Source: a virus
Virus record (IMG/VR): IMGVR_UViG_3300033994_001756
Location: 1 to 64,000 of that record
DNA length: 64,000 nt
Direction: 5' to 3' (one strand)
The notes beneath the pieces are model-generated. The model was given only the letters and a program-made list of their open reading frames with translations. It did no database searches and was not told the DNA's origin. Below, one piece after another: positions 1,780 through 14,871 of the stretch. The position numbers and the translations under genes are program-made. Every line of letters starts with the position of its first letter. The first letter of the stretch is position 1.

Positions 1780-1954
1780 AACTCGTGTTATTCTAGAACA
1801 AGCAATTGAAGAAGGTGTCCTTCGTGGTTGGCGTCTTGCACACAAGCATGTAGAAAACCCTGAAGAACATGCAATCATTGAACGTATCAATGATGCTGTC
1901 ATGTCTCAAATCTACGAATACTTTACTTTTGATGATGAACTACACATTTCCTGA
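1769..1954 (+). CDS. hypothetical 61-residue protein
   Basis: Start chosen at ATG 1769 (MKVKTRVILEQAIEEGVLRG), which overlaps the upstream stop by 11 bases; the longer upstream reading would overlap the previous gene entirely. Helical and acidic, ending YEYFTFDDELHIS. Its 3' end overlaps the RNA ligase start. Unknown function, possibly co-translated with the ligase. Confidence 0.6.
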   Translation: MKVKTRVILEQAIEEGVLRGWRLAHKHVENPEEHAIIERINDAVMSQIYEYFTFDDELHIS

Positions 1955-3098
1955 CATCAATCACATTGATGATGTGATTCCTCACATTGAGGATCGTCCA
2001 GAGTTTAAAGTGATGGACAAAGGTTGGTACACTGTTATCAACTATATGGTTGCATTTGAAGATACGTTCTCACTCATTCGTGAACGTTCTCATTACAACA
2101 TGAAGATGCGTCGTGAGTGTCGTGGTCTCATCTTTGATAATGATACTGGCAATATCATTTCTCGTCCATATCACAAATTCTTCAATGTAGGTGAACGTGA
2201 AGAAACTCAGATTGATAAACTCAACTTGAGTGCTTCACATGTAGTTCTGGAGAAGCTAGATGGTTCGATGATTCGTCCTATTCCAACTCCAGAAGGATTC
2301 CGTTTAGGTACGAAGGCTGGTATTACTGATGTTGCAATGAATGCAGAAGTGTTCATTGGTGATAAGCCACAGTACAATACTTTCATTCGTGCCATGATTG
2401 AAGGTGGAATGACACCTATCTTTGAATGGTGTTCTCGTAAAAATCGTATTGTAGTTGATTATCCTAAAGACCAACTCATTCTCACTGGTATTCGTAACCT
2501 TACCAAAGGTAACTATCTACCATATTTCAACATGGTAGAACTTGCATCACATTATGATATTCCTTATGTGATTGCATTCTCTGGAAGTGTTCCTATTGAT
2601 GAAGACTTAATCACTACTATTCGTAAATGGGATGATGGTGAGGGTGTAGTAATTCGCTTTGATGATGGTCACATGGTCAAAGTTAAAGCTGATGAATATA
2701 TTCTTCGCCATCGCTCAAAGGAACAAATCAACTCAGAAAAGAATATTATTCAAGTTATCATTAATGATGCAGTAGATGATATGATTCCACTGCTTACTGA
2801 AGATGATGCAACTCGACTACGAAAGTTCCAGTCTGACTTCTGGGGTGCAGTTGATGAAGTGGCACAAGACCTTACTACCATCTTTGAAGGTGGTGATAAG
2901 ATGTATCCAGACAAAAAGGAGTTCGCCGTTGAGTTTGTAAATCGAATGCTTCTTCCCATTCATCGCCCATTCATGTTCGGCATGAAACAAGGCAAAGAAT
3001 GTAAACAACTCTTGATTGATTCAATCGAGAAATCTCTCACTTCTCAAACCAAACTAAACGATTCCCGCTGGATGTTCGGAGGTATTTCATGGAACTGA
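1935..3098 (+). CDS. rnlA: RNA ligase, T4 Rnl1 family
   Basis: ATP-dependent RNA ligase that seals 5'-phosphate and 3'-OH ends; in T4 it repairs tRNA cut by host anticodon nucleases. From ATG 1935 (ATG 1932 is equally possible) it is 387 residues, close to T4 Rnl1 (374). The adenylation motif is EKLDGS with nucleophile Lys107. ECRGLIFD and SRPYHKFFN upstream, FEWCSRKNRIV in the middle and EGVVIRF...MVKVKADEY downstream match Rnl1 motifs in order. It is followed by overlapping kinase, deaminase and phosphatase genes, so this is an RNA-repair operon. The family call is firm; the exact substrate is inferred from T4. Confidence 0.93.
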   Translation: MNYTFPDINHIDDVIPHIEDRPEFKVMDKGWYTVINYMVAFEDTFSLIRERSHYNMKMRRECRGLIFDNDTGNIISRPYHKFFNVGEREETQIDKLNLSASHVVLEKLDGSMIRPIPTPEGFRLGTKAGITDVAMNAEVFIGDKPQYNTFIRAMIEGGMTPIFEWCSRKNRIVVDYPKDQLILTGIRNLTKGNYLPYFNMVELASHYDIPYVIAFSGSVPIDEDLITTIRKWDDGEGVVIRFDDGHMVKVKADEYILRHRSKEQINSEKNIIQVIINDAVDDMIPLLTEDDATRLRKFQSDFWGAVDEVAQDLTTIFEGGDKMYPDKKEFAVEFVNRMLLPIHRPFMFGMKQGKECKQLLIDSIEKSLTSQTKLNDSRWMFGGISWN

Positions 3099-3589
3099 TT
3101 ATGATGTGTGGTATTCCTTGTGCAGGTAAATCATCCTACATTCGCAGAGGAATTGACAACACTGATGTGTTTGATGAATATGTAATCATTTCCACTGATG
3201 ATTACATTGAAAAAATTGCAAGAGAAAACAATTCAACTTACAATGAAGTCTTTGACGATGTTATCTCTGAGGCTACTGCTAAGATGTATGAAGAGCTAGA
3301 ACTTGCAATTCAACGAGGCAAGTCTATCATCTGGGATCAGACTAATGTTTCTAGAAAGTCTCGTAGACAGAAACTAAAGAAGATTCCAGATACTTATACC
3401 AAAACTGCAGTGGTTCTTCCTATCACTCTTGAAGAAGCTATCATTCGCAATTCGCAAAGAGCAAACAAATTCATTCCACGCTCTGTTATTACTCGCATGT
3501 ATCACCAATTTGAAATGCCAACTGAAGACGAAGGTTTTGATGTTATTATGACTCATGATGGGTCGCATCTGAAATTGCAGGTAGCCTGA
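3089..3589 (+). CDS. pseT: polynucleotide 5'-kinase (kinase half of Pnkp)
   Basis: P-loop kinase of 166 residues. Walker A is GIPCAGKSS (residues 8-16), followed by ISTDDYIE and WDQTNVSRKSRR, the order seen in the T4 Pnkp kinase domain. In T4 this domain is fused to a C-terminal 3'-phosphatase; here the protein ends after the kinase and the phosphatase is a separate gene at 3941. It would phosphorylate 5'-OH RNA ends for the ligase encoded just upstream, with which it overlaps by 10 bases. The split is visible in the sequence; the RNA-repair role is by family. Confidence 0.85.
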   Translation: MELIMMCGIPCAGKSSYIRRGIDNTDVFDEYVIISTDDYIEKIARENNSTYNEVFDDVISEATAKMYEELELAIQRGKSIIWDQTNVSRKSRRQKLKKIPDTYTKTAVVLPITLEEAIIRNSQRANKFIPRSVITRMYHQFEMPTEDEGFDVIMTHDGSHLKLQVA

Positions 3590-3966
3590 TGATCTCTGAC
3601 TCGGTATTTGAACACGCAATCGCAACTGCAAAATCTTCTCCATCAAAGAAACAAGTTGGCGCTTTGCTACTCAATAAAAACAAAGTAATTGTCTCAGCTA
3701 CTAATTTAGAAACTAAGTCTCATCCAATTCAAGCTAAGTTTGCAGAACGAGTTGGATTGAAAGAAAAGATCTATCTCCATGCAGAGATCGCAGCCCTAGT
3801 TAAGTGTCGTGAAGATGTAGATACTATTATTGTTGCAAGGATCAATCCACAGGGTAAACTACGAATGGCTCGACCATGCCCCATTTGCCAGCTAGCACTC
3901 AAAGAAGCTGGCATCACTCATGTTCACTATACCACAAACCATGGATTCCTCTACGAATACTCCTAA
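3589..3966 (+). CDS. zinc-dependent cytidine deaminase-like protein
   Basis: 125 residues with the deaminase zinc signature: HAEIAAL (His64, Glu66) and PCPICQLAL (Cys97, Cys100). It could act on a free nucleotide (dCMP/cytidine type) or on a base in RNA. It is smaller than T4 dCMP deaminase. The context is striking: it sits between the kinase and phosphatase halves of Pnkp and overlaps both (ATG within the kinase stop; 26-base overlap with the phosphatase). The fold is well supported; substrate unknown, and an RNA-editing role is speculation from context. Confidence 0.8.
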   Translation: MISDSVFEHAIATAKSSPSKKQVGALLLNKNKVIVSATNLETKSHPIQAKFAERVGLKEKIYLHAEIAALVKCREDVDTIIVARINPQGKLRMARPCPICQLALKEAGITHVHYTTNHGFLYEYS

Positions 3967-4414
3967 ACTTAAGTGCATCATTTTTGACCTCGATGGTACT
4001 CTCTGTGATGTGACTCATCGCAGACAATTTGTTGCAACCAAGCCTCGTAACTGGGATGCATGGAATCGTGGAATCAGTAATGATAAACCTGTAGAGCAGG
4101 TACTTGAAATGTTTTGTGCATTGAAGTACCTATATCCTATTTTCTTTGTAAGTGGTCGCTCTGATGATTATCGTGATGTGACTGTAAAATGGCTTGAGAA
4201 ACATGGTATCACACCATATGATCATAATGGCTTATACATGAGAAAGTATCAAGACCATCGTGATGATGCTATTGTGAAGGCAGAGATTGCTGATCAGATC
4301 GAAGAGCAATATCAAATCTTTGCAGTGTTTGATGATCGCAAAAGGGTCTTGACAATGTGGCAGGATCGTGGTATATTTACCTTTGATGTCTCCCAAGGTA
4401 AAGGTGATTTCTAA
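3941..4414 (+). CDS. pseT: HAD phosphatase (3'-phosphatase half of Pnkp)
   Basis: 157 residues from ATG 3941; an ATG at 3920 in frame would lengthen the overlap. HAD motif I is IIFDLDGTL (Asp16, Asp18), then FFVSGRSDDYRD (motif II), KAEI (motif III Lys region) and AVFDDRKRVLTMW (motif IV). The order and the C-terminal ending in GDF match the phosphatase domain of T4 Pnkp, which removes 2',3'-cyclic or 3' phosphates from cut tRNA. With the kinase at 3089 it rebuilds Pnkp as two polypeptides. Confidence 0.85.
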   Translation: MDSSTNTPKLKCIIFDLDGTLCDVTHRRQFVATKPRNWDAWNRGISNDKPVEQVLEMFCALKYLYPIFFVSGRSDDYRDVTVKWLEKHGITPYDHNGLYMRKYQDHRDDAIVKAEIADQIEEQYQIFAVFDDRKRVLTMWQDRGIFTFDVSQGKGDF

Positions 4415-4779
4415 TGGGAATGTTTGATCGAGTTCGTTGTTCATATCCAATCAACGAACATTTCAATAATCATACATTACAAACCAAAGGACTCAAGTGT
4501 ATTATGACTGATTATTGGATCAGTCCTTCTGGTGAGTTGTATGAGATTGATGATTGCATGGCTGCAGACTTTGTAGAAGTCGATGATGAATCACTTCCAC
4601 CTTGGGCAAGATTTCAATGGATTCCAAATGGCAATCATGGTGTGATTCGTCCACAATATGTAACTGATTGCATTGAAGTATATCCAGAACAAAACCCAAA
4701 TGCAAAATGGGAATGCTGGCCAAGATGTAGTATATGTTTTAAACTAGGTAAGATTACCCACATTGAAATACTTAGATGA
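4414..4779 (+). CDS. conserved phage protein of unknown function
   Basis: 121 residues beginning MGMFDRVRCSYPI, an N-terminus common in conserved small proteins of T4-like and other phages, then LQTKGLKCIMTDYWISPSGE and several Cys and Trp residues. ATG overlaps the phosphatase stop (TAATG). Possibly a metal-binding small protein because of CWPRCSIC near the C-terminus. Function unknown. Confidence 0.7.
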   Translation: MGMFDRVRCSYPINEHFNNHTLQTKGLKCIMTDYWISPSGELYEIDDCMAADFVEVDDESLPPWARFQWIPNGNHGVIRPQYVTDCIEVYPEQNPNAKWECWPRCSICFKLGKITHIEILR

Positions 4780-5057
4780 GTGATTTTCCATACGAAGGAT
4801 TTCCATACAGGCTAGAATACACTGATGGAAAGGATGAACGAGTTTGTTGGTTTATGTGTGAAGAGCATCTTCAGAAACATATTGAGAGATACAAACCAAC
4901 CAATGCAAGTATTCAAACAGTCAAACGAAAACCAAAAGAAAAGAAACCTGAACTGTTCTCAACACTAGACACATTCTTTACACCAGATGAAACACCTGTG
5001 GCACCTGTGGGCACTCGCACTAGGAGAAAAAGCACACAAAAAAGATCAAGTAGCTGA
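4776..5057 (+). CDS. hypothetical protein with basic tail
   Basis: 93 residues, ATG overlapping the previous TGA (ATGA). The N-terminal half is compact and Cys-containing (CWFMCEEHLQKHIERY). The C-terminal half is Lys/Arg/Ser/Pro-rich (KRKPKEKKPE...TRTRRKSTQKRSSS) and likely disordered or nucleic-acid-binding. Function unknown. Confidence 0.65.
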   Translation: MSDFPYEGFPYRLEYTDGKDERVCWFMCEEHLQKHIERYKPTNASIQTVKRKPKEKKPELFSTLDTFFTPDETPVAPVGTRTRRKSTQKRSSS

Positions 5058-5307
5058 TAAGGTTGCTATTGTAAGGACAGTTATCTTTACTACGTATCTC
5101 ATTACAAACTGCTTTATTGTTGCTGGTGTTATTCGACACTGGAATGATAGAGAAATTAAAGTTGAAGTTGAAATCTATGAAAATTCAAACTATGCAGAAA
5201 AACTTTACTCAGAAGGACGGGACTATCTGGGAATGGATGGAGACTCCCGAATTGAGGGAGTATATCGCTCAGGCACAGTCAAAAACCGTACTGGAGAATT
5301 TGAATGA
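4987..5307 (+). CDS. small membrane protein
   Basis: 106 residues with one hydrophobic segment (about residues 27-48, AIVRTVIFTTYLITNCFIVAG) and a charged C-terminal domain. It overlaps the previous gene by 71 bases in another frame. Its TGA overlaps the ATG of the next gene (ATGA at 5304), which supports translation. The first 15 residues may not be used; no better start was found. Confidence 0.5.
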   Translation: MKHLWHLWALALGEKAHKKDQVADKVAIVRTVIFTTYLITNCFIVAGVIRHWNDREIKVEVEIYENSNYAEKLYSEGRDYLGMDGDSRIEGVYRSGTVKNRTGEFE

Positions 5308-5329
5308 CAAACCCAAACGAGCATCCTGA
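5177..5329 (+). CDS. possible overlapping small ORF
   Basis: 50 residues from ATG 5177 (MKIQTMQKNFTQKDGTIWEW, then METPELREYIAQAQ). It overlaps the membrane-protein gene almost completely in another frame, yet its sequence looks protein-like. Either both frames are used or one is a shadow. Low confidence. Confidence 0.3.
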   Translation: MKIQTMQKNFTQKDGTIWEWMETPELREYIAQAQSKTVLENLNDKPKRAS

Positions 5330-5540
5330 AATTGCAGAGGTAGATTGGATTGATGATACATTCCGTGTTGAACAATCTCGTTGGAAAACTTGGAAGAGTT
5401 TTCATAAGAATGGGGACCCGCTTATTACTTCTCTCACACGGGAATCTTGCATCAATGCAACAAGATTCATCCTTAAAGGAAGACAAGAAGGTTTTCCCGA
5501 AAGTAAACTTTACGAAGGGGTGGTAGGTGGAAAACTCTAA
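5304..5540 (+). CDS. hypothetical 78-residue protein
   Basis: ATG 5304 overlaps the TGA of the membrane gene. Contains WIDDTFRVEQSRWKTWKSFH and a helical RFILKGRQEGF segment. No family recognised. Confidence 0.6.
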   Translation: MTNPNEHPEIAEVDWIDDTFRVEQSRWKTWKSFHKNGDPLITSLTRESCINATRFILKGRQEGFPESKLYEGVVGGKL

Positions 5541-5694
5541 TGATGTGCCAGTTCACGTACTGGACCCAACCACTCCCTGGTATGAGTTTTTATCCTATAC
5601 TGAATGCTGTTGGAGCCTAAATCCACCAGGACATCCATCACTCACCCGCTTCATGCGTTACCACGATTATCTCAAGGAGATTGGTCTCAAATGA
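5527..5694 (+). CDS. hypothetical 55-residue protein, GTG start
   Basis: Reads from GTG 5527 (or GTG 5545) to TGA 5692. It encodes VPVHVLDPTTPWYEFLSYTE, then CCWSLNPPGHPSLTRFMRYH. It overlaps the previous stop by 14 bases and the next ATG as ATGA, so the frame fills the gap exactly. A competing ATG frame at 5541 stops after 27 codons. Function unknown. Confidence 0.55.
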   Translation: MENSNDVPVHVLDPTTPWYEFLSYTECCWSLNPPGHPSLTRFMRYHDYLKEIGLK

Positions 5695-5879
5695 ATGATT
5701 TTTCAATTTCAGGCACAGCAAACAAATATACAGATGCAGAACTTGATGCAATGTGTCTGTATTCCGAAAATCTTGATCTGAAACGTAGGATTGGGATTCT
5801 TGAAGAAGAAAATCTAAAACTCAAGAATGAACTTCTTGAACTCTCTGCACAAATGGAAGGAATGATTTATGAAAACTAG
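5691..5879 (+). CDS. coiled-coil small protein
   Basis: 62 residues from ATG 5691, overlapping the upstream TGA. The second half is a clear coiled coil (LKRRIGILEEENLKLKNELL). The frame is open further upstream, but that part would duplicate the gene at 5527. Unknown role. Confidence 0.6.
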   Translation: MNDFSISGTANKYTDAELDAMCLYSENLDLKRRIGILEEENLKLKNELLELSAQMEGMIYEN

Positions 5880-6186
5880 TATTCTTGTTTTTGGTAGTTT
5901 TGTGGGTCTGGTTGCTTCTATTTGGGGGATTGCCTACCACGACCTTCTGTTCACCGCATTTTTTGCACCAAAGTACGAGAATGTTCGCAGGAACACCTTT
6001 GAACAATCAAAGTCCTTCCGAACTGGTGCTGTCCAAGAACTGCAGAATATGCAATTTGAGTATATCAAAGCAACACCTGAACATAAAGCAGCACTGGCAG
6101 ATGTAATTCGGCATCGTGCTGCTGAAGTTCCTGCTGATGCTATGCCTTCTGACCTCCAATCCTTCATCTCTAATCTTCCTAACTGA
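5869..6186 (+). CDS. membrane-anchored conserved protein
   Basis: 105 residues. One N-terminal transmembrane helix (about residues 4-24, LVFGSFVGLVASIWGIAY) is followed by a soluble domain with FFAPKYENVRRNTFEQSKSF and a long helix (GAVQELQNMQFEYIKATPEH). It is followed two bases later by a lipoprotein gene and then an SPFH-like gene, suggesting a shared envelope function. I recall similar adjacent pairs in other phages but cannot name a function. Confidence 0.7.
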   Translation: MKTSILVFGSFVGLVASIWGIAYHDLLFTAFFAPKYENVRRNTFEQSKSFRTGAVQELQNMQFEYIKATPEHKAALADVIRHRAAEVPADAMPSDLQSFISNLPN

Positions 6187-6188
6187 TA

Positions 6189-6674
6189 ATGAAATCCATT
6201 GCTTCTGTTGCTGTCATCACACTTCTGGGTGTAACTCTTGTTGGTTGTGATGATTTCAGTAATTCTGACCAAAAACAACGTGATCAGCAAGAACGTATTC
6301 TTCAAGAAGGTACTGCTCAAACTGGTATGCCTGCCATCAAGAACTTCCGTGAACGCAAACTGATGAAACAAATCATTGAGATGCGTGACCAAGATGGTTT
6401 AGTGACTTATACTTACACTGTTCCTGAAACTACTGGTCGTCCAGTGTTCCTGTGTAATTCTATTGGTTATGGTTTGCCTGCTGCTACTCAATATACTAAT
6501 CCTGAAAAGTATGAGTACACTGGAACAACTCTACCACAAGCAGACCCTAATGGTCTTTTTTCTCCTGATAGTGCAGAAGGAACTTGGGTGATGTGTTCTG
6601 ATCCCAGTGGTAGTGGTAAGACCCGTCCTGTGTATGTTGAACCTCGTATTATTGTTTCTCCCTTTAAACTCTGA
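6189..6674 (+). CDS. lipoprotein
   Basis: 161 residues. N-terminal signal peptide with lipobox LVGC (Cys20): MKSIASVAVITLLGVTLVGC. The mature part begins Asp-Asp, is charged and Gln-rich (RDQQERILQEGTAQTGMPAI), and continues into a domain with LVTYTYTVPETTGRPVFLC. It is expected to be exported and lipid-anchored. Its neighbours are a membrane protein and an SPFH-like protein. A phage lipoprotein of this kind could alter the host envelope or block superinfection; that is inference. Confidence 0.75.
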   Translation: MKSIASVAVITLLGVTLVGCDDFSNSDQKQRDQQERILQEGTAQTGMPAIKNFRERKLMKQIIEMRDQDGLVTYTYTVPETTGRPVFLCNSIGYGLPAATQYTNPEKYEYTGTTLPQADPNGLFSPDSAEGTWVMCSDPSGSGKTRPVYVEPRIIVSPFKL

Positions 6675-6676
6675 TT

Positions 6677-7099
6677 ATGACTAAAGTTGTTTATAATGCC
6701 TGCTACGGTGGGTTTGGTCTGTCTAAAGAAGCAGTCCAACGATACTGGGAACTCAAAGAACAACAAGTTTGGATTGAGGATGAACGATGGGGATATAATG
6801 TTTGGCTGGTTCCACCTGAAGAGCGAATCAAAGCAAAAAACACAGAAGAGTTTCAGGCTATGAGTTTTGATGAGCGTATGGCTTACAACAAAGCATATTC
6901 AGCACAAAATTGGTATCACCGTGATGTTGATCGTCATGACCCTATTCTGGTTCAAGTTGTAGAAGAACTGGGTGACAAAGCAAATGGTGAGTGTGCTAAA
7001 CTTGCTATTGTTGAAATCAGTGGTCCTTATCATATTGATGAATATGATGGATTTGAGAGTGTAGAAACTCCTAATAGTTATGATTGGATTACTCCCTGA
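6677..7099 (+). CDS. conserved phage protein of unknown function
   Basis: 140 residues starting MTKVVYNACYGGFGLSKEAV, an N-terminus I recognise as common to a conserved phage protein family without assigned function. Later segments include ERMAYNKAYSAQNWYHRDVD and RHDPILVQVVEELGDKANGE. It sits between the lipoprotein and SPFH-like genes, two bases after the former. Confidence 0.7.
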   Translation: MTKVVYNACYGGFGLSKEAVQRYWELKEQQVWIEDERWGYNVWLVPPEERIKAKNTEEFQAMSFDERMAYNKAYSAQNWYHRDVDRHDPILVQVVEELGDKANGECAKLAIVEISGPYHIDEYDGFESVETPNSYDWITP

Positions 7100-7121
7100 A
7101 CTTTATTTGAGGTAAATTACT

Positions 7122-7529
7122 ATGACTAAACAAAACGGATTTATTGACCCTGTTATTGCTATTGGTGCTGTTGGTGCCATTGCTGTTCTTGGTCTCATCT
7201 TCATTGGTGGTCCACAGTATAATGTGTGGCAGCAATCACTTGCTGGTAAAGCGGAACTGCAAAAGGCAGAGTTTACTCGTCAGGTAGCAGTTCTGGAAGC
7301 ACAAGCAAAGAAAGATTCTGCTTCGCAACTTGCTGATGCTGAAATCATCCGTGCTCAAGGTGTTGCCAAGGCAAACCAAATCATTGGTGATTCGCTGAAA
7401 GATAATCGTGAGTATCTTCAGTATCTGTACATTACTGGTATTGAAGATGGTGCCAAAAATGGTAATGTAACCATCTATGTGCCCACTGAAGGTGGGATGC
7501 CTGTTCCTACACTCCAAATGAACAAATGA
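7122..7529 (+). CDS. SPFH/prohibitin-like membrane protein
   Basis: 135 residues preceded by a GAGGT ribosome site. An N-terminal hydrophobic segment (about residues 9-28, AIGAVGAIAVLGLIFIGG) is followed by an Ala/Gln/Lys-rich helical coiled segment (ARQ-type, QAKKDSASQLADAEIIRAQG) like the C-terminal stalk of prohibitin/stomatin proteins, and a short domain ending VPTEGGMPVPTLQ. It lacks a full SPFH domain, so it is a minimal version. The role is not established. Confidence 0.65.
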   Translation: MTKQNGFIDPVIAIGAVGAIAVLGLIFIGGPQYNVWQQSLAGKAELQKAEFTRQVAVLEAQAKKDSASQLADAEIIRAQGVAKANQIIGDSLKDNREYLQYLYITGIEDGAKNGNVTIYVPTEGGMPVPTLQMNK

Positions 7530-8128
7530 TTGAAAAGCAAATCCAGTCTGAAGTTTATGGTGTTCCAAGTGTATTCACACTAAGGTTTTACACTGAGGAT
7601 GATACTCCATGGCTCAAGAATACTTTTGAAGCCTGGAAACTATTGCATGAATGCCTTCGTGAAGAAGCAGCTGGAGACCAGGGACTGTTTCATGATGAGA
7701 GAGCTACAAACATTCCAGAAGCAATCTCTGAAGTAACATATTGTATTTTGACTACAGCTGGTAGGTATCACAAATCATCAAATGAAAAGCTAAAAGATCG
7801 TTCGTTTGATGCATTTGATATTATTGACGGCAAGGCAGTACAGATCAAAGCTACACAAATGAAGTATGATTGTACATCATTTGGACCCAAGTCCAAGCAA
7901 GATAAAATTATCTTTATGGATTTCTACAATGGTGGCAACATTGATGGTACTGTAGATGTTTATGAGATTCCATATGATCTTGTATCAAATGTAATCGTCA
8001 AACAAAAAGAACAAGTCACATTTGAAGAACGCAAGAAAGAGGGAAAGCGTCCTAGGTTCTCTGTAAAGAAATACGTAATCGAACCCAACGATCTCCAGCC
8101 CCTTTACAAGGGAATCAAACTGTGGTAA
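7526..8128 (+). CDS. type II restriction endonuclease, Bsp6I-like
   Basis: 200 residues, ATG overlapping the previous TGA. It has ERATNIPEAISE, then SFDAFDIIDGKAVQIKATQ, a PD-(D/E)XK-type core (Asp95 or Asp98, Gln106-x-Lys108), SFGPKSKQDKIIFMDFYNGG and KRPRFSVKKYVIE. From memory these blocks and spacing are those of the Bsp6I family (GC^NGC cutters), but I could not search. A C5-cytosine methyltransferase follows 24 bases later, the expected partner. With it this forms a phage-borne restriction-modification pair, probably used against other DNA in the infected cell. Alternatively it is an orphan nuclease protected by the methylase. Confidence 0.72.
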   Translation: MIEKQIQSEVYGVPSVFTLRFYTEDDTPWLKNTFEAWKLLHECLREEAAGDQGLFHDERATNIPEAISEVTYCILTTAGRYHKSSNEKLKDRSFDAFDIIDGKAVQIKATQMKYDCTSFGPKSKQDKIIFMDFYNGGNIDGTVDVYEIPYDLVSNVIVKQKEQVTFEERKKEGKRPRFSVKKYVIEPNDLQPLYKGIKLW

Positions 8129-8152
8129 CATATCAGAACTTATACGAAGGCT

Positions 8153-9091
8153 ATGCTAAAAACTATTGATCTCTTTGCTGGAATTGGTGGGATGCGTATT
8201 GGATTTGAGAATGCTGGATTCCAAACAGTATTCTCAAATGACTTTGAACCCAAGTGCAAAGCAACTTATGATCTAAACTTCCAAGAGTCTAAACTTCACA
8301 TTCAGGATATTCGTGAGATCAATCCTGCAACACTCCCTGACTTTAACTTCCTATTAGGTGGTTTTCCTTGCCAGCCATTCTCTATTGCTGGCAACCGTCA
8401 GGGATTTGATGATCAAAAGGATCGTGGCAATCTATTCTTTTGCATTGCCAACATTATTAAACAGAAATCTCCCGATGGATTTCTTCTTGAGAATGTAAAG
8501 AATCTAGTTGGTCATGATGGTGGTAATACTATGAAAACCATCAGTGCAATTATTAATAGCCTTGGCTATAGTTTCAAGTATAAAGTTCTGAATACTATGG
8601 AATATGGTAATGTTCCGCAGAATCGTGAACGTATCTATATTGTAGGGTTCAAAGATCCAGTTCACAACTTTAAGTTTAGTTTCCCAGATCGAGTTGCACT
8701 TACCAAAACTGTACGTGAGTATCTTGAACCAGTTGTAGATCGTAAATATTATTATAATGGTAAGCCACTCTATGACAGAATCAAAGATGATGTCATAGAT
8801 GAGAATGAAGTATATCAGTGGAGGCGTAAGTATGTACGTCAAAACAAACGAGGTGTATGTCCTACACTAACTGCTAATATGGGATCAGGTGGACATAATG
8901 TTCCTATTATTAAAGTCTCAGATGGTATTCGTAAACTAACTCCTCTTGAATGTGTACGACTTCAAGGATTCCCTGATTGGTATCAACTACCAAAAGCATC
9001 TGATTCATCATTGTATATGCAAGCTGGTAACTCAGTGAGTGTTCCTGTTATTGAAGCCATAGCAAAACGAGTTGTATTTGCTATGCAATAA
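8153..9091 (+). CDS. C5-cytosine DNA methyltransferase
   Basis: 312 residues with the m5C motifs in order: I DLFAGIGGMRIGFENAGF, IV GGFPCQPFS (catalytic Cys73), VI LLENVKNL (Glu113), VIII QNRERIYIVGF, and IX/X IRKLTPLECVRLQGFP and MQAGNSVSVPVIEAI. The recognition region between VIII and IX is short, as in methylases of small palindromic sites. It transfers methyl from AdoMet to cytosine in DNA. It is the last gene of the operon, directly after the Bsp6I-like nuclease whose site it should protect; a strong terminator follows at once. Confidence 0.95.
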   Translation: MLKTIDLFAGIGGMRIGFENAGFQTVFSNDFEPKCKATYDLNFQESKLHIQDIREINPATLPDFNFLLGGFPCQPFSIAGNRQGFDDQKDRGNLFFCIANIIKQKSPDGFLLENVKNLVGHDGGNTMKTISAIINSLGYSFKYKVLNTMEYGNVPQNRERIYIVGFKDPVHNFKFSFPDRVALTKTVREYLEPVVDRKYYYNGKPLYDRIKDDVIDENEVYQWRRKYVRQNKRGVCPTLTANMGSGGHNVPIIKVSDGIRKLTPLECVRLQGFPDWYQLPKASDSSLYMQAGNSVSVPVIEAIAKRVVFAMQ

Positions 9092-9096
9092 TAATC

Positions 9097-9120
9097 AGAG
9101 GGCTATATGCCCTCTTTTTT
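9097..9120 (+). terminator. Rho-independent terminator after the methyltransferase
   Basis: Perfect 7-bp stem AGAGGGC / GCCCTCT with loop TATAT, followed by a T-run. It closes the long polycistronic operon that fills 1-9091. Confidence 0.9.
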
Positions 9121-9128
9121 GTGTCTGC

Positions 9129-9157
9129 TTGACATGGTTGTGGCTCCATGGTACGAT
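9129..9157 (+). promoter_or_regulatory. sigma70-type promoter of the helicase gene
   Basis: TTGACA, 17-bp spacer, TACGAT. It lies just after the terminator and 22 bases before ATG 9179, supporting that start over the upstream in-frame ATG. Confidence 0.75.
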
Positions 9158-9178
9158 AGATCCATTCGTTCATCACCC

Positions 9179-10420
9179 ATGAAGCTCCGTCCCCACCAAG
9201 CCCGAAGCCTCACCAAGATGGAACTGGTTCGCCTTGGCCAAATTTATGTTCCGACTGGTGGTGGCAAAACTCTGATTATGATTCGTGATCTCATGCGTAG
9301 ATTAGAAGAATCAGACAAACCATTTACTGCACTGATTGTTGCTCCTCGCATCCTGCTTGCGAATCAATTGTGTGCAGAGTTTACACAAGAAATCAAGAAT
9401 GCTGTTGTCGCCCATGTTCACTCTGGCGAAACCAAACATTTCTCTACAACTAATCCTGATCATATTACCATGTTCCACAACATGGTTAAATCTAACAATG
9501 AACACCAATTACTTTTTACTACTTATCATTCTCTTCACCGTGTTATTGACAGTGGAATACACATTGATACAGTCTACTTCGATGAGGCTCACAATGCCTG
9601 TAAGCGAGACTTCTTTGTTTCTACTGCAATGATGTCTCAACATGCAGAGTCTGCATACTATTTTACTGCTACACCTAAACTGTCACAGAATCCAAAAGGT
9701 CGTGGCATGAATAACTCTATTGTGTTTGGTCAAATTATTGAGAATGTACCTGCACCTGAACTGATTGAGAACGGTAGCATCATTCCTCCCATGGTGCAAG
9801 TGTATGAGGTTGATGGTGAGCGTGATAAAGATAATGCAGCAAAACATGATGCTAAAACTCTATTAGCTATCCTTGATGGCCTAGATGCAAATAAAGCTCA
9901 AAAAGTGCTAGTTGCTGCACCTAGTACCAAGGTTTTATGTCAGATGCTGTTCCGAACTGATGTCATGAATCAATTCAAACAACGTGGCTATGAGATCCTA
10001 CATATTACATCTAAGGAAGGTGCATATGTCAATGACCAGAAGGTGAATCGTGAAGTATTCTTTGATACCATGACTAAATGGGGTCAAGACAAGCAAAAGA
10101 AGTTTGTATTGTTTCACTATTCGATTTTGAGTGAAGGGATCAACTGCCCAGGGCTTACGCACTCTGTGCTCTTGCGAAATCTCAACGTCATTGAAATGTG
10201 TCAAACTATTGGACGAGTTATTCGTGTTGATAGAGAAGATGCACAAGATATGGCTGATGGTGTGCTCACTCCTGGTGATTACATGTCTTATCGTAAATCT
10301 CATGGTTTTGTGACTGTACCAGTTCACAAGAACTATGGTAAGAATACTCAACAACGTCTGCAATCTGTTGTAGACTTTGTATTCAGGCAGGGAATCCCTC
10401 CAGAATACTATGTGGACTGA
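9179..10420 (+). CDS. superfamily II helicase
   Basis: 413 residues from ATG 9179; the frame opens at 9107, but that part contains the promoter. Motif Q region LRPHQ, Walker A PTGGGKT (25-31), motif Ia VAPRILLANQL, DEAH box at about 135, motif III TATPK at about 163, and motif VI QTIGRVIR at about 342. It is of the UvsW/type-III-restriction-like helicase group and would unwind or remodel DNA or RNA with ATP. T4-like cyanophages usually carry UvsW near uvsY, which lies at the window end, so this may be a second helicase. The adjacency to restriction-modification genes is suggestive, but it has its own promoter. Confidence 0.85.
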   Translation: MKLRPHQARSLTKMELVRLGQIYVPTGGGKTLIMIRDLMRRLEESDKPFTALIVAPRILLANQLCAEFTQEIKNAVVAHVHSGETKHFSTTNPDHITMFHNMVKSNNEHQLLFTTYHSLHRVIDSGIHIDTVYFDEAHNACKRDFFVSTAMMSQHAESAYYFTATPKLSQNPKGRGMNNSIVFGQIIENVPAPELIENGSIIPPMVQVYEVDGERDKDNAAKHDAKTLLAILDGLDANKAQKVLVAAPSTKVLCQMLFRTDVMNQFKQRGYEILHITSKEGAYVNDQKVNREVFFDTMTKWGQDKQKKFVLFHYSILSEGINCPGLTHSVLLRNLNVIEMCQTIGRVIRVDREDAQDMADGVLTPGDYMSYRKSHGFVTVPVHKNYGKNTQQRLQSVVDFVFRQGIPPEYYVD

Positions 10421-10430
10421 GCCAGTTCAC

Positions 10431-10476
10431 GGGCTGTCACAGACCACTTGACAGCCCTGCCAATCTGCCCTATTGT
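10431..10476 (+). promoter_or_regulatory. promoter with -35 inside a perfect inverted repeat
   Basis: TTGACA (10448) - 17 bp - TATTGT (10471) drives the small-gene operon at 10527. The -35 box is part of a perfect 9-bp inverted repeat, GGGCTGTCA (10431) / TGACAGCCC (10449). This could be the helicase terminator stem or an operator; it lacks a T-run. Confidence 0.7.
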
Positions 10477-10526
10477 GTCTTTGTTGACACGGAGGACTTC
10501 TGACCTACTCACCTCGACGCAAACGC

Positions 10527-10763
10527 ATGAACAACAAAGAATATACCTGGGCGGAAGCTCTAGGTGCTCTCACAGGACTTGCAATCATTGTAGTATTTGC
10601 ATTCATTCTGAGTGCTTTACTCATGATTCCTGTAGCATGGATTGTTCACTGGATTCTAGTGAATCTCTTTAGCTACACTGTTCTCACTTTTTGGCAAGTC
10701 TGGGGTATCATTCTTGGTATTCGACTTGTATTCTCTGGCCTCGTTACTGTAAACAAAAACTGA
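10527..10763 (+). CDS. small membrane protein, two TM helices
   Basis: 78 residues with two hydrophobic helices (about 15-44 and 50-72: GLAIIVVFAFILSALLMIPV; LTFWQVWGIILGIRLVFSG). First gene of an operon running to 13387 from the promoter at 10448. Unknown function. Confidence 0.7.
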   Translation: MNNKEYTWAEALGALTGLAIIVVFAFILSALLMIPVAWIVHWILVNLFSYTVLTFWQVWGIILGIRLVFSGLVTVNKN

Positions 10764-10769
10764 TTTATC

Positions 10770-11003
10770 ATGGAAACTGGTGACATCACGGTTACACTCA
10801 CTGAATCTCAGCATGAGATGATGATGGACATTATCTTGAATGCTCTCGATTCATTTCAGCTTGTAGCTCCCTATGATGATGGTATGCACGAGCTTCCGCT
10901 TGACAATGCCATCGTTCAACGGTATGATACGCTGGATACACTCCGACAGACATTCGCAAGTCTCTGGAGTGATCGCTTCAATCCTTATTCTGAGGAAAAC
11001 TGA
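10770..11003 (+). CDS. hypothetical acidic protein
   Basis: 77 residues, ATG 10770, six bases after the membrane gene. The first part resembles the small phage segment ITVTLTESQHEMMMDIILNA, followed by acidic helices. Its TGA overlaps the next ATG. Unknown function. Confidence 0.65.
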   Translation: METGDITVTLTESQHEMMMDIILNALDSFQLVAPYDDGMHELPLDNAIVQRYDTLDTLRQTFASLWSDRFNPYSEEN

Positions 11004-11179
11004 TGCTTCCCTTTCTCTTGGCTACAATCGTTCAGTATGATTTCCTATCGACTCCTGTTCCTGAAAGTGTTGCAAGGCAATGTGCCTCTGATGTTGGCAT
11101 TCCTTATGCTAGCGACAATTTTAGTGATACTGAATGGCAAGAGTTCAAGCGTTGTATCATCTATCGCATGAGTCGCTGA
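11003..11179 (+). CDS. hypothetical 58-residue protein
   Basis: ATG overlaps the upstream TGA (TGATG). Sequence MLPFLLATIVQYDFLSTPVP, then ESVARQCASDVGIPYASDNF and a basic C-terminus. The hydrophobic first 10 residues are too short for a firm signal peptide. Stop TGA at 11177, one base before the next gene. Unknown. Confidence 0.55.
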   Translation: MLPFLLATIVQYDFLSTPVPESVARQCASDVGIPYASDNFSDTEWQEFKRCIIYRMSR

Positions 11180-11180
11180 C

Positions 11181-11510
11181 ATGACACAACGCTGGAGAGC
11201 AACAATCCGAACCCAATCCAATGTTCTACAGAATGTTGAGATTGAAACCCCTGGTATTGTACGACAAGATGCTATTGCACAAGTTAAATCAACCTATGGT
11301 GCAAAGGAGGTTATTACCTGCAATCCTATAAGTTCACCTTCTTCATCATCCAGTTCTGGATCCAGTTATTCTTCTGGCTCATCTGATGGTGGACTGTTCT
11401 GGATCTTGCTCTTCGGTGCAATGATGGCAGTTTATGTATTTCGATATGTAATTCTTGTTGCTGTCATTCTGTTTGCTATCTATTGTATCTACAAATGGCT
11501 TAAGAAATGA
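11181..11510 (+). CDS. membrane protein with Ser-rich linker
   Basis: 109 residues: a small N-terminal domain (TQRWRATIRTQSNVLQNVEI), a Ser/Gly low-complexity linker (about 52-71), then one or two transmembrane helices and a basic tail (YKWLKK). The layout suggests a cytoplasmic domain tethered to the membrane. Its TGA overlaps the phosphoesterase ATG. Confidence 0.65.
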   Translation: MTQRWRATIRTQSNVLQNVEIETPGIVRQDAIAQVKSTYGAKEVITCNPISSPSSSSSSGSSYSSGSSDGGLFWILLFGAMMAVYVFRYVILVAVILFAIYCIYKWLKK

Positions 11511-12139
11511 AAACTATTCGCTTCATTGGTGATGTTCATGGTAAATGGAAACGATACAAGAAGATCATCAATGAATGCGATGTTTCTATTCAAGTTGGTG
11601 ATTTCGGTGTAGGCTTTATCAGTAAAATTACTGAGCAAGTACATTCCAATCCTCCATATGATTCCATGAAGAAAGGTGATCACCGATTCATTCGTGGCAA
11701 CCATGATAATCCAAATGTATGCAAAAAGCATCCATTCTGGATACCAGATGGCACACTGATTCATGATAAGATCTTTTGTGTTGGTGGTGCAAAGTCTATT
11801 GACCAAGCATACCGAACAGAAGGATACAACTGGTGGCCTGATGAAGAATTATCATATTCAAAATTATTAAATGTGTATGATGAGTATGAAAAGCTCAAGC
11901 CATCTGTCATTGTTGCACATGAAATGCCAGAAAGCCTAACATACATAGTCTGTGCGAAACATAATATGACAAAACTTAACGATGTATCAGTAACTCGTCA
12001 GTTTTTTGATAATATAATAGACATACACAAACCAGACTTGTTTATTCATGGCCATTGGCATGTCAACCATCATACTATACACAATGGTGTTGAATACATT
12101 GGTCTGGGTGAGTTAGACTACGTAGACCTGGAACTATGA
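11507..12139 (+). CDS. calcineurin-like metallophosphoesterase
   Basis: 210 residues with the dinuclear-metal motifs in order: GDVHG (8-12), VGDFG, RGNHDN, VAHEMP and HGHWHVNHH. It would hydrolyse a phosphoester of a nucleotide, protein or nucleic acid. Phage members include serine/threonine phosphatases and Ap4A-type hydrolases; the substrate cannot be told here. It is in an operon of small early genes and overlaps genes on both sides. Confidence 0.85.
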   Translation: MKTIRFIGDVHGKWKRYKKIINECDVSIQVGDFGVGFISKITEQVHSNPPYDSMKKGDHRFIRGNHDNPNVCKKHPFWIPDGTLIHDKIFCVGGAKSIDQAYRTEGYNWWPDEELSYSKLLNVYDEYEKLKPSVIVAHEMPESLTYIVCAKHNMTKLNDVSVTRQFFDNIIDIHKPDLFIHGHWHVNHHTIHNGVEYIGLGELDYVDLEL

Positions 12140-12294
12140 ACGATGAAGACTGGACCAATCTCAGCAACATGCACAAGGAGTTGACAAAAAACCATCTAGC
12201 AGCCTATGATACAGCATATCTTGAAAAGTATGCTGAATTACTTGCCAAATCACTTGAAGGAAAAGGAGATCCATCACACAATGGACGAAGCTGA
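12136..12294 (+). CDS. hypothetical 52-residue protein
   Basis: ATG overlaps the phosphoesterase TGA. Helical: MNDEDWTNLSNMHKELTKNH, then AAYDTAYLEKYAELLAKSL. It overlaps the next gene by 14 bases. Unknown. Confidence 0.55.
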   Translation: MNDEDWTNLSNMHKELTKNHLAAYDTAYLEKYAELLAKSLEGKGDPSHNGRS

Positions 12295-12502
12295 TTATTC
12301 AATCTATCTCTCACATACTAATGCTATGGAGAGAATGGAGAAGTTCAACAATCGTGCAGTAAATGCTAAAACCTACAAAACAATGCACAAGAACTTCCGA
12401 ATTGCTGATGCTCTCTATGCAGAGTATCGTGAACTGATCGAAGAAGATCAAAACTATGTTACACTCTGTCTCGACCACCTTGAAGGTATTCTCAATGATT
12501 GA
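12281..12502 (+). CDS. hypothetical helical protein
   Basis: 73 residues from ATG 12281 (MDEADYSIYLSHTNAMERME). The frame is open to 12206, but that would duplicate the upstream gene. Its TGA overlaps the following ATG region. All-helical; unknown. Confidence 0.6.
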   Translation: MDEADYSIYLSHTNAMERMEKFNNRAVNAKTYKTMHKNFRIADALYAEYRELIEEDQNYVTLCLDHLEGILND

Positions 12503-12680
12503 AACCACTACTTTCCCAACTGAAGTTAATGCTATCGCTGCAGTTGCAGGATTAGCTGGAGCACTTGTTGTGATTCTTTACGCATTCACACGGAACCATC
12601 AGTATGAAATGCGGAAACGTTCCGCACGCATCAGCAAAGCTAATCAATCAGAGGTTGACATGCCTCCACAGATCGGTTAA
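12495..12680 (+). CDS. small single-pass membrane protein
   Basis: 61 residues from ATG 12495: short acidic lead, transmembrane helix (about 11-30, AIAAVAGLAGALVVILYAFT), then a basic cytoplasmic tail (RNHQYEMRKRSARISKANQ). Unknown function. Confidence 0.6.
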   Translation: MIETTTFPTEVNAIAAVAGLAGALVVILYAFTRNHQYEMRKRSARISKANQSEVDMPPQIG

Positions 12681-12706
12681 TCTGTAAAGGTAGTCAAGGG
12701 ACTTCA

Positions 12707-12883
12707 ATGAAACCCTATCCACTCGGCATCGACAATCCTTACAAGATTATGCAAGAGATTGGTTCTACCAAATGGTCTATTTACAGAATGGAACCATTCC
12801 AAAAGGTAGCAACATTCAGATCACAGTTTGATGCCTATGATGCTCGCCGTATCCTACTCCAAGTAGAAGGCTACAACGCATGA
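12707..12883 (+). CDS. hypothetical 58-residue protein
   Basis: ATG 12707 to TGA 12881. Sequence MKPYPLGIDNPYKIMQEIGS, then TKWSIYRMEPFQKVATFRSQ. It resembles small phage proteins with a beta-hairpin WSIYR motif. Ends overlapping the next ATG (ATGA). Confidence 0.6.
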   Translation: MKPYPLGIDNPYKIMQEIGSTKWSIYRMEPFQKVATFRSQFDAYDARRILLQVEGYNA

Positions 12884-13038
12884 GATATGTACCAGCAATC
12901 ATCTGTGGTTTTAGTATTATCATTGGTTGGAATGTTCTCATGGCCCTCCGTGATAATGGTAAACTCATTGATGTAGAATACCGAGCAGTACATCAAATGT
13001 ATTGCATCAAATACCCCAATCATCATCACTGCAAATGA
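12880..13038 (+). CDS. small membrane protein
   Basis: 52 residues, ATG overlapping the upstream TGA. N-terminal transmembrane helix (MRYVPAIICGFSIIIGWNVL) and a short exposed tail with His/Cys (HHHCK). Unknown. Confidence 0.55.
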   Translation: MRYVPAIICGFSIIIGWNVLMALRDNGKLIDVEYRAVHQMYCIKYPNHHHCK

Positions 13039-13301
13039 ACTTCACTGAACTGAACTTTGAGCAACACAAGATTCAAGATGGCATTCAAGCCAAACATTTC
13101 TTCCCTAATGGTTATGGTGTATCTGTAGTTCGCTTTCCTGGTAGTTATGGTTTTGAAGATGATTTGTATGAAGTAGCTATTCTCAAAGGCACCCAAGATA
13201 ATTGGGAAATCACCTATGATACACCAATCACTGATGATGTATTAGGTCATCGTGATGAACAAGACATTAACAACATTCTAGAAGAGGTACAAGCACTATG
13301 A
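13035..13301 (+). CDS. hypothetical 88-residue protein
   Basis: From ATG 13035, overlapping the upstream TGA. Beta-rich appearance (GYGVSVVRFPGSYGFEDDLY, then EVAILKGTQDNWEITYDTPI) resembling a conserved small cyanophage protein. Acidic. Unknown. Confidence 0.65.
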   Translation: MNFTELNFEQHKIQDGIQAKHFFPNGYGVSVVRFPGSYGFEDDLYEVAILKGTQDNWEITYDTPITDDVLGHRDEQDINNILEEVQAL

Positions 13302-13387
13302 GCAAGAAACCCTACAACAAACAACCCAAGCCTAAGACTGTAAAGATCTTTGGCACCTATCATACCTATACCAAGCCAGTTCAATAA
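13298..13387 (+). CDS. basic 29-residue peptide
   Basis: ATG overlaps the upstream TGA; MSKKPYNKQPKPKTVKIFGT, ending TKPVQ. Very basic. It is the last ORF before the terminator at 13401. Short, so supported mainly by the translational coupling. Confidence 0.4.
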   Translation: MSKKPYNKQPKPKTVKIFGTYHTYTKPVQ

Positions 13388-13400
13388 CTGTCACACTCAT

Positions 13401-13422
13401 GCCCCACTCCTGGGGCATTTTC
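13401..13422 (+). terminator. terminator of the 10.5-13.4 kb operon
   Basis: GCCCC / GGGGC stem with loop ACTCCT, followed by ATTTTC. Confidence 0.7.
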
Positions 13423-13426
13423 GGTC

Positions 13427-13444
13427 TATACTGATTCCAGTTCA
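13427..13444 (+). promoter_or_regulatory. probable promoter -10 and start region
   Basis: TATACTGATTCCAGTTCA immediately after the terminator. The same TATACTGAT-(2)-CAGTTCA block occurs at 18813, and a near relative (CATACTGAACTCGTTCA) at 15434 and 15675. No good -35 was found. Confidence 0.5.
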
Positions 13445-13457
13445 ACCACACCACACC

Positions 13458-13739
13458 ATGGTCACCGAACAGTTCTCCGCAGTCTTCCCTACCTGCTTCC
13501 GCATTCAGAATGATGATGAGTTGTTCTGGGTATATCCTGACCGCCTCATGGCCAACCTCCCACTGCCAGAAACTGAAGAAGATGCCATCCTAGATGGTTT
13601 CCCCACCATCACGTCATACGGTGCCCTCACTCCTACCTATTATCTGCAAGTAGAAAACCAAGAGTATATCAGCACATCACTTCAAGAACTGGAGCAAATC
13701 CTGTATACCTGGACATCTGAAGAAGGCTATGTGTGGTAG
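13458..13739 (+). CDS. hypothetical acidic protein
   Basis: 93 residues from ATG 13458. The open frame begins at 13350, but the upstream part spans the terminator. Contains VFPTCFRIQNDDELFWVYPD and DGFPTITSYGALTPTYYLQV. Single-gene unit between its own promoter and the late promoter at 13812. Unknown. Confidence 0.65.
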   Translation: MVTEQFSAVFPTCFRIQNDDELFWVYPDRLMANLPLPETEEDAILDGFPTITSYGALTPTYYLQVENQEYISTSLQELEQILYTWTSEEGYVW

Positions 13740-13811
13740 TATTCACGTCAGAAAAACACCACATATTCACCCTAAAACACACCACGCCACCCAACTCAAC
13801 CTTCAACTCAA

Positions 13812-13819
13812 AATAAATA
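13812..13819 (+). promoter_or_regulatory. late promoter (AATAAATA)
   Basis: T4-type late promoter octamer (consensus TATAAATA) upstream of the capsid-targeted gene at 13844; its neighbours use sigma70-type promoters instead. Confidence 0.6.
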
Positions 13820-13843
13820 GAATTAACCATGTTTAGATCAATC

Positions 13844-14191
13844 ATGATTACTTTCAAACAGTTCCTAGAAGAAGCAAAGAAGAAGGATAAGAAACCAAAG
13901 CCACTGTACTCTGAAAAGCATATCAAGGATCTTATAAAGAAACAAGGAGGGCATGGTCGTGAAGCAATCGAAAGGTATAATAGAGAGAATCCAAACCAAG
14001 GCCCAAGAGAATATAAACTAGGTGAAGATATACAACAAAAACAACAACAATTAAATCAAACACAAAGAGAAAGACTACAAGCAGAAAGAGATAGAGTAGA
14101 GAATTATAAAAAGAAAAGAAGAGAAGATGCAGATAGAGAGGATGAACAAGCAGAAATCATCCGAAGAATCGAAAAGATGAACAAAAACTGA
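13844..14191 (+). CDS. putative internal head protein with capsid-targeting sequence
   Basis: 115 residues from ATG 13844; an in-frame ATG at 13829 would add MFRSI. It begins MITFKQFLEEA, matching the T4 internal protein signal MKTYQEFIAEA with the cleavage Glu at the same position (Glu10, then Ala11). The rest is highly charged, Lys/Glu/Gln-rich and helical (QQKQQQLNQTQRERLQAERD). It is preceded by a late-promoter octamer. Expected to be packaged in the prohead, trimmed by the gp21 protease and injected with DNA. The signal is seen; the injection role is inferred from T4. Confidence 0.6.
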   Translation: MITFKQFLEEAKKKDKKPKPLYSEKHIKDLIKKQGGHGREAIERYNRENPNQGPREYKLGEDIQQKQQQLNQTQRERLQAERDRVENYKKKRREDADREDEQAEIIRRIEKMNKN

Positions 14192-14200
14192 TTGATTATT

Positions 14201-14815
14201 ATGACTAAACTAGTTTATGGTGTAGGAATTAATGATGCAGGTTACATCGTTATTCCTAAAGTTAATGGAAAGAACAAACACTGTAAAGTGTATGCTAATT
14301 GGAATGGAATGCTTAGACGTTGTTATTGTGAAAAATATCACTTAAGGTATCCCACATATAAAGGTTGTACTGTAGCACCAGTATGGCATAGATTCTCTAA
14401 CTTCAAAGCCTGGCATGATCAACAAGCATACACTCAAGGAATGCACTTAGATAAAGACATTATCTATCCAGGTAATAAAGTCTATGGACCAGAAACATGT
14501 GTGTATGTAAGTTCTAACTTGAATAAACTCTTGAATAAGGGAAGTGCTAGAAGAGGGAAGTATCCTATTGGAGTAGTTAAACAAGCTGATATAAGTGATA
14601 AAGGTAGACCTTTCATATCACGTATCAAAATCAATAGTAAATACATTCTTGTAGGTTGTTATCATACACAAGAAGAAGCACATGAAGCATATGTACAAGC
14701 AAAGATAAAATATATTCAAGATTATTATCTAATAAAAGAAGAAGATCAAAGGATTATAGATGGATTGAATAGGTGGATTGATGTGTTGCGGAATGGTATG
14801 TATGATTTAGTGTAA
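14201..14815 (+). CDS. HNH/AP2-like putative homing endonuclease
   Basis: 204 residues from ATG 14201. The N-terminal half follows the pattern W-x-x-ML-x-RCY ... YPTYKGCTVAPVWHRFSNFK ... LDKDIIYPGNKVYGPETC, seen in many phage HNH-like or AP2-associated proteins. The C-terminal half (KYPIGVVKQ... RPFISRIKINSKYILVGCYH, then TQEEAHEAYVQAKIKY) is AP2/ERF-like DNA-binding. Such genes are usually mobile. It sits between a late gene and the regulatory gap at 14.8-15.2 kb. The HNH catalytic residues are not fully clear, so it may be a DNA-binding remnant. Confidence 0.65.
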   Translation: MTKLVYGVGINDAGYIVIPKVNGKNKHCKVYANWNGMLRRCYCEKYHLRYPTYKGCTVAPVWHRFSNFKAWHDQQAYTQGMHLDKDIIYPGNKVYGPETCVYVSSNLNKLLNKGSARRGKYPIGVVKQADISDKGRPFISRIKINSKYILVGCYHTQEEAHEAYVQAKIKYIQDYYLIKEEDQRIIDGLNRWIDVLRNGMYDLV

Positions 14816-14871
14816 ATTATTAAGGTTATATTAAATGTAATAAAAAACATATATGAGTGATGTGTGTAGAG

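Follow-up and report, generated by a model that had tools for sequence, protein, structure and literature searches.

Restriction-modification (R-M) systems are usually taught as a bacterial defense against phages. The restriction endonuclease Bsp6I cuts at the position GC^NGC. Small systems with an endonuclease of this family and a cytosine methylase partner are the Bsp6I system itself and the MAGa4250/4260 pair of Mycoplasma agalactiae. In M. agalactiae 5632, the methylated motif GCNGC is attributed to the Bsp6I-type methylase (81.7% to M.Bsp6I), the mark being listed as N4-methylcytosine in one table and as predicted 5-methylcytosine in another (PMC9465063). These systems lie on a chromosome or a small plasmid, whereas the gene pair described here is carried by a T4-like cyanophage. 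It was found in a window of 64,000 nucleotides, the whole stretch of DNA that was analyzed, corresponding to bases 1-64,000 of the viral record IMGVR_UViG_3300033994_001756 (full record 172,253 bp), and consists of an endonuclease gene followed by a C5-cytosine DNA methyltransferase gene (Table 1). That the pair constitutes a type II R-M system is close to certain, and we consider it very likely that it is a complete and functional Bsp6I-type (type IIP-like) system; this assessment covers identity and working principle, with the target considered apart.

The 200-codon open reading frame (ORF) matched the Pfam family PF09504 (RE_Bsp6I) with 34.5 bits, above the curated cut-off of 25, and the PADLOC profile REase_II at 2.2e-18. 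A diverged homolog in another viral contig (L005, see below) reached 44.4 bits against PF09504. NCBIfam yielded no match to the endonuclease, PHROGs nothing better than E 0.13, and phmmer with the single protein against the Protein Data Bank (PDB) only unrelated weak matches (a glucosyltransferase at 0.0076; picornavirus capsid proteins). Aligning 31 sequences revealed 16 invariant columns, among them E69, D95, K108, D115, S118-F-G-P121, and D126. Two positions ahead of K108, the cyanophage, archaeal, and Nitrospinota rows have Q and the Firmicutes rows E; the Firmicutes branch, with EXK where the window endonuclease has QXK, shares ~24-30% identity with it. For this alignment, L128 and L157 of the 25 proposed references were not used, the starts of L108 and L117 were adjusted manually, and L010 and L018 (the latter near-identical to L017) were omitted.

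The AlphaFold2 model of the endonuclease (predicted local distance difference test, pLDDT, 90.8; predicted template modeling score, pTM, 0.87) places E69 in a helix, D95 immediately ahead of a strand, and Q106-I-K108 within the strand that follows. A structural second look gave as top solved folds the N-domain of Eco15I (Z 8.4; 3.7 Å, 116 residues) and PvuII (Z 7.4-7.5), and DpnI also matched (Z 6.8). When a profile was built from the 31 sequences, Eco15I was its sole PDB match (E 0.012), the alignment running through D..QIK. The model suggests that the core has a PvuII/Eco15I-like PD-(D/E)XK fold, the hallmarks of which are a glutamate in the core helix and an aspartate and (D/E/Q)XK on adjacent strands. 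According to the Eco15I study, the active sites of Eco15I and NhoI are QIK and QVK, glutamine can serve as a metal ligand, every active-site change tested in Eco15I abolishes activity, and PvuII is the closest canonical relative of the two enzymes (PMC11347163). Since Eco15I is active with QIK, the glutamine in the cyanophage enzyme is no sign of a dead enzyme, and we predict with high confidence that the endonuclease is catalytically active. A decayed endonuclease was ruled out by the invariant residues together with the substitution rates given below.

The hallmark motifs of C5-methyltransferases are PCQ, ENV, and QxRxR, all of which are intact in the second gene product (GFPCQPF, ENVKNL, and QNRERIYIVG). 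This protein scored 293.6 bits against PF00145 and 323 bits against TIGR00675 (dcm), its closest solved protein is M.HhaI (E 5e-59), and it is the sole PF00145 match in the whole record. Both genes lie on the plus strand, separated by 24 bases (8129-8152). A preliminary description of this DNA, made from the letters alone, had seen a nuclease core of the form D..D...QxK, had pointed to the Bsp6I family, and had read the gene 24 bases further on as a full C5-cytosine methyltransferase. Each of these points has held up: D95-AF-D98 and Q106-I-K108 are present in the product of 7526-8128 and are placed in the predicted core rather than lost from it, a family match exists, and the methylase ORF is intact over 312 codons.

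The two genes stay together in most loci that have the endonuclease. Complete endonuclease genes were found in ten non-duplicate phage or viral loci (the window, L005, L006, L010, and L016-L021), and a methylase hit adjoins all ten; it is on the opposite strand in L017 and L018 and runs past the contig end in L016. Six duplicate loci (L001, L002, L004, L012, L013, and L015) were dropped before counting; L003 and L014 end within the endonuclease, and the methylase side is absent from those contigs. One scan of 84,980 species genomes provided a further 55 chromosomal loci, 49 of which contain a C5 methylase within the fetched flanks: in 41 it follows the endonuclease on the same strand at up to 350 bp, in five it is on the other strand within 350 bp, and in three it lies farther away. 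Among the six without one, L111, L120, L144, and L160 end within ~170 bp past the endonuclease, while L108 and L159 do not. No cyanobacterium appeared among the 55 chromosomal locus titles in a pattern-based, non-exhaustive check. The reading as an orphan methylase next to an unrelated ORF was discarded because of the profile match, the fold, and the linkage. The pairing and the gene order noted in the preliminary description therefore stand, but its worry that an endonuclease gene placed first calls for control or pre-methylated DNA is weakened, because this order on the same strand is the usual one among the chromosomal loci.

The recognition region of the methylase carries the motif YQWRR...GGHN, which all 48 full-length methylases paired with a Bsp6I-type endonuclease share, compared to 2 of 80 full-length viral relatives lacking this partner; the contrast is inflated by relatedness, and the unpaired set is mostly the best 80 of the viral methylase search. 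Judged from these sequences, the contrast would tie the methylase specificity to the endonuclease family. Because of this tie and of the assignment of GCNGC to the Mycoplasma methylase, GCNGC is the likely site of the cyanophage pair, and by family membership we regard it as its probable recognition sequence. Four viral methylases (L022, L023, L024, and L025) have YQWRR or YQYRR, two of them fitting the full motif, and no Bsp6I-type endonuclease in their fetched flanks; they are possibly orphaned relics or partners of another nuclease.

The pair recurs in other viral contigs. An endonuclease identical to that of the window is found in IMGVR_UViG_3300047094_001651, where the upstream gene differs by one residue, and an identical but truncated one in 3300044971_001079. 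Diverged pairs are present in 3300009466_000014 (L005; endonuclease 80% and methylase 87% identity to the window), 3300047550_004649 (L021; 46% and 70%), and 3300000116_001661 (L006; 37% and 71%). The neighborhood in L005 is the same as in the window but different in L006 and L021, in each of which one gene beside the pair matches cyanophage S-SRM01 best; the pair has thus relocated or been acquired on more than one occasion. Each of the four cyanophage lineages with complete loci has an open endonuclease frame with an intact active site. Their endonucleases form one clade with support 100/98, although the bootstrap had not settled and L006 sits on a long branch. This clade is nested together with sequences from archaea and Nitrospinota, away from the Firmicutes branch. 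Outside the cyanophages, the closest methylases found belong to pairs with archaeal endonucleases of the neighboring branch (59-61% for five, 55% for L107), so both genes share the same kin. The ratio of non-synonymous to synonymous substitution rates (dN/dS, NG86), calculated for the window versus L005 as deeper pairs are saturated, was 0.099 for the endonuclease, 0.091 for the methylase, 0.086 for the upstream gene, and 0.099 for the helicase. The pair has been held by this cyanophage lineage for a long time and under selection.

Among phages such pairs are rare, as the preliminary description had assumed. A tblastn search with three cyanophage endonucleases and that of a Blautia phage matched a single one of 50,697 phage records, namely Blautia phage NatCom_2932 (PV036415.1, L010). 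With the three cyanophage queries, no cyanophage record in this collection was found to carry such an endonuclease, though 418 records carry the neighboring helicase. By comparison, methylase relatives at E<=1e-30 occur in 300 of the 50,697 records. Nine plasmid records matched the endonuclease, eight of them annotated as Bsp6I-family (small Firmicutes plasmids). We found no prior report of a Bsp6I-type pair in a cyanophage in the literature searched, and one may be in print. The Blautia phage has the same two families in the same order (genes 2154-2696 and 2805-3776) but differs in the EFK motif of the Firmicutes branch, in its 27% and 53% identity to the window pair, and in its classification as Ca. 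Heliusvirales. Two genes before its pair, at 716-1171, lies a Vsr-like mismatch endonuclease gene (PF03852, 100 bits); Vsr-like genes typically accompany 5-methylcytosine methylation.

The carrier is a T4-like cyanophage (putatively Kyanoviridae), as shown by T4-like structural genes, a cyanophage UvsW-like helicase, and psbA. Long ORFs of the window were read by us as T4-like baseplate, tail sheath, terminase, portal, prohead, and capsid genes, and the S-SRM01 stretch homologous to this structural region is annotated with the same genes. In the same record, psbA lies at 104694-105566 (298.6 bits). All 418 phage records matched by the helicase are titled Synechococcus, Cyanophage, Prochlorococcus, or "Marine". 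At the DNA level, 5% of bases 1-16,000 show similarity, at 84%, to S-SRM01, a freshwater Synechococcus phage. The description as a T4-like phage is therefore correct. Phage genes border the pair on either side, and its guanine-plus-cytosine (GC) content matches the surroundings. The endonuclease start codon overlaps the stop codon of the phage gene before it (ATGA), a layout shared with L005. The promoter-like site at the end of the endonuclease gene has the counterpart TTTACA-17-TAAACT in L005; promoter matches overall are not clearly in excess of shuffled sequence, and by rough arithmetic the identity run in the conserved 3′ stretch of the gene that holds this site is within chance, so the site carries little weight.

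Table 1 Features of the R-M pair and its flanks in the window (position 1 is the first base of the record).
Feature	Position	Strand	Basis or remarks
Upstream flanking phage gene	7122..7529	+	phrog_11227; "membrane protease subunit" in S-SRM01; outside the R-M pair, same gene run, overlaps endonuclease start
Bsp6I-family type II restriction endonuclease gene, 200 amino acids	7526..8128	+	PF09504, PADLOC REase_II, AlphaFold model, dN/dS
E69 codon, nuclease-core helix glutamate	7730..7732	+	Invariant in 31 relatives; in model helix 65-75
D95 codon, "PD" aspartate	7808..7810	+	Invariant in 31 relatives; just before strand 96-98
Q106-I-K108 codons, (D/E)XK position read as QXK	7841..7849	+	K108 invariant in 31; strand 103-110; motif as in active Eco15I
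Weak promoter-like site TTTACA-17-TAACAT with TG	8103..8131	+	End of endonuclease gene, 5′ of methylase
C5-cytosine DNA methyltransferase gene, 312 amino acids, cognate modification enzyme	8153..9091	+	PF00145, TIGR00675, M.HhaI
Catalytic Cys73 codon in GFPCQPF	8369..8371	+	Invariant in 4 paired phage methylases
Target-recognition stretch YQWRRKYVRQNKRGVCPTLTANMGSGGHNVPII	8813..8911	+	Common to methylases paired with the Bsp6I-type endonuclease family
Intrinsic-terminator-like stem, 7 pairs, loop 5, then T run	9097..9115	+	Closes module; counterpart in L005 at 5943-5961
Downstream flank, T4-like cyanophage UvsW-type helicase	9182..10420	+	phrog_16; conserved start 9182

Several results weigh against a complete, active system of this type. 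The endonuclease of L010 scored 22.5 bits against PF09504, below the cut-off, and that of L006 had no match at E 0.01, so the family assignment by profile is modest at its edges. Foldseek alone returned no significant fold match (best E 0.4), and Z values of 7-8.4 for Eco15I and PvuII are in the middling range by the tool's own scale. No separate controller gene for the pair was seen. The phage's own sites, finally, are informative only to a small degree: the whole record has 197 GCNGC sites (~1 per 870 bases) versus 247 expected by a Markov model, or 158 versus 186.5 by synonymous shuffling (ratio 0.85), and this depletion says little on GCNGC because it is mild and no stronger than that of GGNCC, which has the same ratio. 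With so many GCNGC sites in the phage genome, an active endonuclease would be tolerable only with the methylase.

Other short sites behaved differently in the two related phages. CGCG is nearly absent from the whole record (2 sites versus 39.5 expected by the Markov model and 47.0 by synonymous shuffling) and counts 9 versus 17.7 in the S-SRM01 sample; its scarcity suggests strong past selection by a host enzyme cutting CGCG. By synonymous shuffling, AGCT is depleted in S-SRM01 (16 versus 112.9) but hardly in the record of the window (390 versus 461.2), so the avoided tetramers differ between related phages. The window also contains a GC-rich island at 18000-22000 (GC 0.54-0.58 inside a 37% GC genome), with no ORF of at least 150 amino acids between 17752 and 21953, no Rfam match, and only short DNA matches of 70-79% to cyanophages such as S-2L and DSL-LC07.

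The heptamer ATAAATA, which we take to be the core of T4-type late promoters, occurs 17 times in the window compared to a shuffle mean of 28. All occurrences lie at 13813-61836, several of them 30-55 bases 5′ of structural genes; the first 13.8 kb, which hold the pair, contain no copy (chance ~0.016 by simple arithmetic). The position of the pair in a region without ATAAATA suggests non-late (early or middle) expression and action inside the cell, not packaging.

In the mechanism we propose, the methylase would place 5-methylcytosine on the phage's own sites, most likely GCNGC, and the PvuII-like endonuclease, probably as a dimer, would cut the same sites when unmodified. The action would probably be intracellular and precede or coincide with phage DNA replication, when the host chromosome and the DNA of competing phages would be the unmodified substrates. 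Since related viruses have kept the pair for long, it probably serves to mark the virus's own DNA and to cut unmarked DNA within infected cells. The favored order of targets is host DNA first, with exclusion of rival phages close behind. We tentatively see the main use in breaking down the host genome and recycling its nucleotides, at a little below an even chance. Slightly less assured is the wider proposal of a host-shredding weapon that evolved in parallel to that of chloroviruses, in which the Bsp6I-type enzyme cuts host GCNGC sites, the methylase covers the sparser phage sites, and the pair feeds nucleotides and bars rivals, its retention being so long that the endonucleases have reached 37% identity inside one cyanophage clade. 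From the GC content of picocyanobacteria, we assume that the host genome is probably GC-rich and has more GCNGC sites than the phage.

The same chemistry could be directed mainly against competing phages, methylated progeny being safe and unmodified incoming genomes being cut (superinfection exclusion). The marseillevirus example, where the enzymes spare host DNA and cut related viruses lacking the system, speaks for this use, as does the GCNGC content of the S-SRM01 sample (97 sites versus 68 by the Markov model; 73 versus 74.6 by synonymous shuffling), which is not depleted, so that such phages would be targets. However, host DNA in the same cell would be equally unmodified unless the host has its own GCNGC methylase, and we give exclusion as the main role roughly one chance in three. 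The remaining share of use, after host breakdown and exclusion, falls to counter-restriction or selfish persistence. A further alternative would be that only the methylase matters, shielding the phage from a host GCNGC enzyme with the endonuclease as a passenger that keeps the methylase linked. Orphan phage methylases are indeed common, as the 300 records above illustrate, but the endonuclease has a dN/dS as low as its neighbors and an open frame with intact active site in every complete cyanophage lineage, which makes a mere passenger unlikely.

Still less probable, and only faintly so, is a modification-dependent endonuclease like BisI or Eco15I that cuts methylated GCNGC, with the methylase marking DNA for destruction. 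Among solved proteins, the closest structure and the only profile match is Eco15I, which cuts methylated GCNGC and has the same QIK. Such an enzyme would, however, cut the phage's own genome; the methylase linkage in 49 of the 55 chromosomal loci is the layout of protective pairs; and the Pfam family is Bsp6I, with a Bsp6I-type methylase of Mycoplasma marking GCNGC in a live organism whose genome includes the endonuclease gene as well. R-M genes are mobile, and the neighborhoods in L006 and L021 differ from those in the window and L005, as might be expected of an assembly chimera or a recent bacterial cassette insertion without a phage role. This explanation is hardly credible given the phage genes on both sides, the GC content like the surroundings, a near-identical region in a second IMG/VR contig with diverged versions in three more, and the cyanophage-only endonuclease clade; a chimera in particular was rejected by the independent contigs carrying the pair.

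The enzymes thus belong to known families, and it is their carrier and long retention that surprise: a lineage of phages maintains its own complete R-M pair under selection. Compared to solved enzymes, the endonuclease resembles the BisI-family enzymes Eco15I and NhoI as well as PvuII in its predicted fold, Eco15I in the QIK active site, and the BisI family in its probable GCNGC site, but BisI enzymes need methylated sites and PvuII is a blunt cutter of another site, both unlike the proposed cyanophage enzyme. Among prokaryotic viruses, the Mom-endonuclease fusions of jumbo phages follow the same proposed logic, with the phage's own DNA modified and unmodified host or rival DNA attacked (PMC7824862); they differ by adenine momylation and fused domains, whereas here a C5 methylase and a Bsp6I-type enzyme are separate. 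If the pair is active, GCNGC methylation would provide a handle for recognizing such phages in long-read metagenomes.

As working analogues, chloroviruses and marseilleviruses come closest. Chloroviruses (PBCV-1 and relatives) likewise infect a photosynthetic cell and have adjacent methylase and endonuclease genes, and their endonuclease is thought to degrade host DNA (PMC7019647); they differ in the eukaryotic host, in using other enzymes, and in packaging the endonuclease in the virion. The marseillevirus GATC system is a virus-borne complete pair whose endonuclease is transcribed first; it differs in the eukaryotic host, the GATC site, and the choice of target described above. If active, the cyanophage pair would offer a simple test case for the site-specific restriction of host or rival DNA by a prokaryotic virus, as in the giant viruses of algae.

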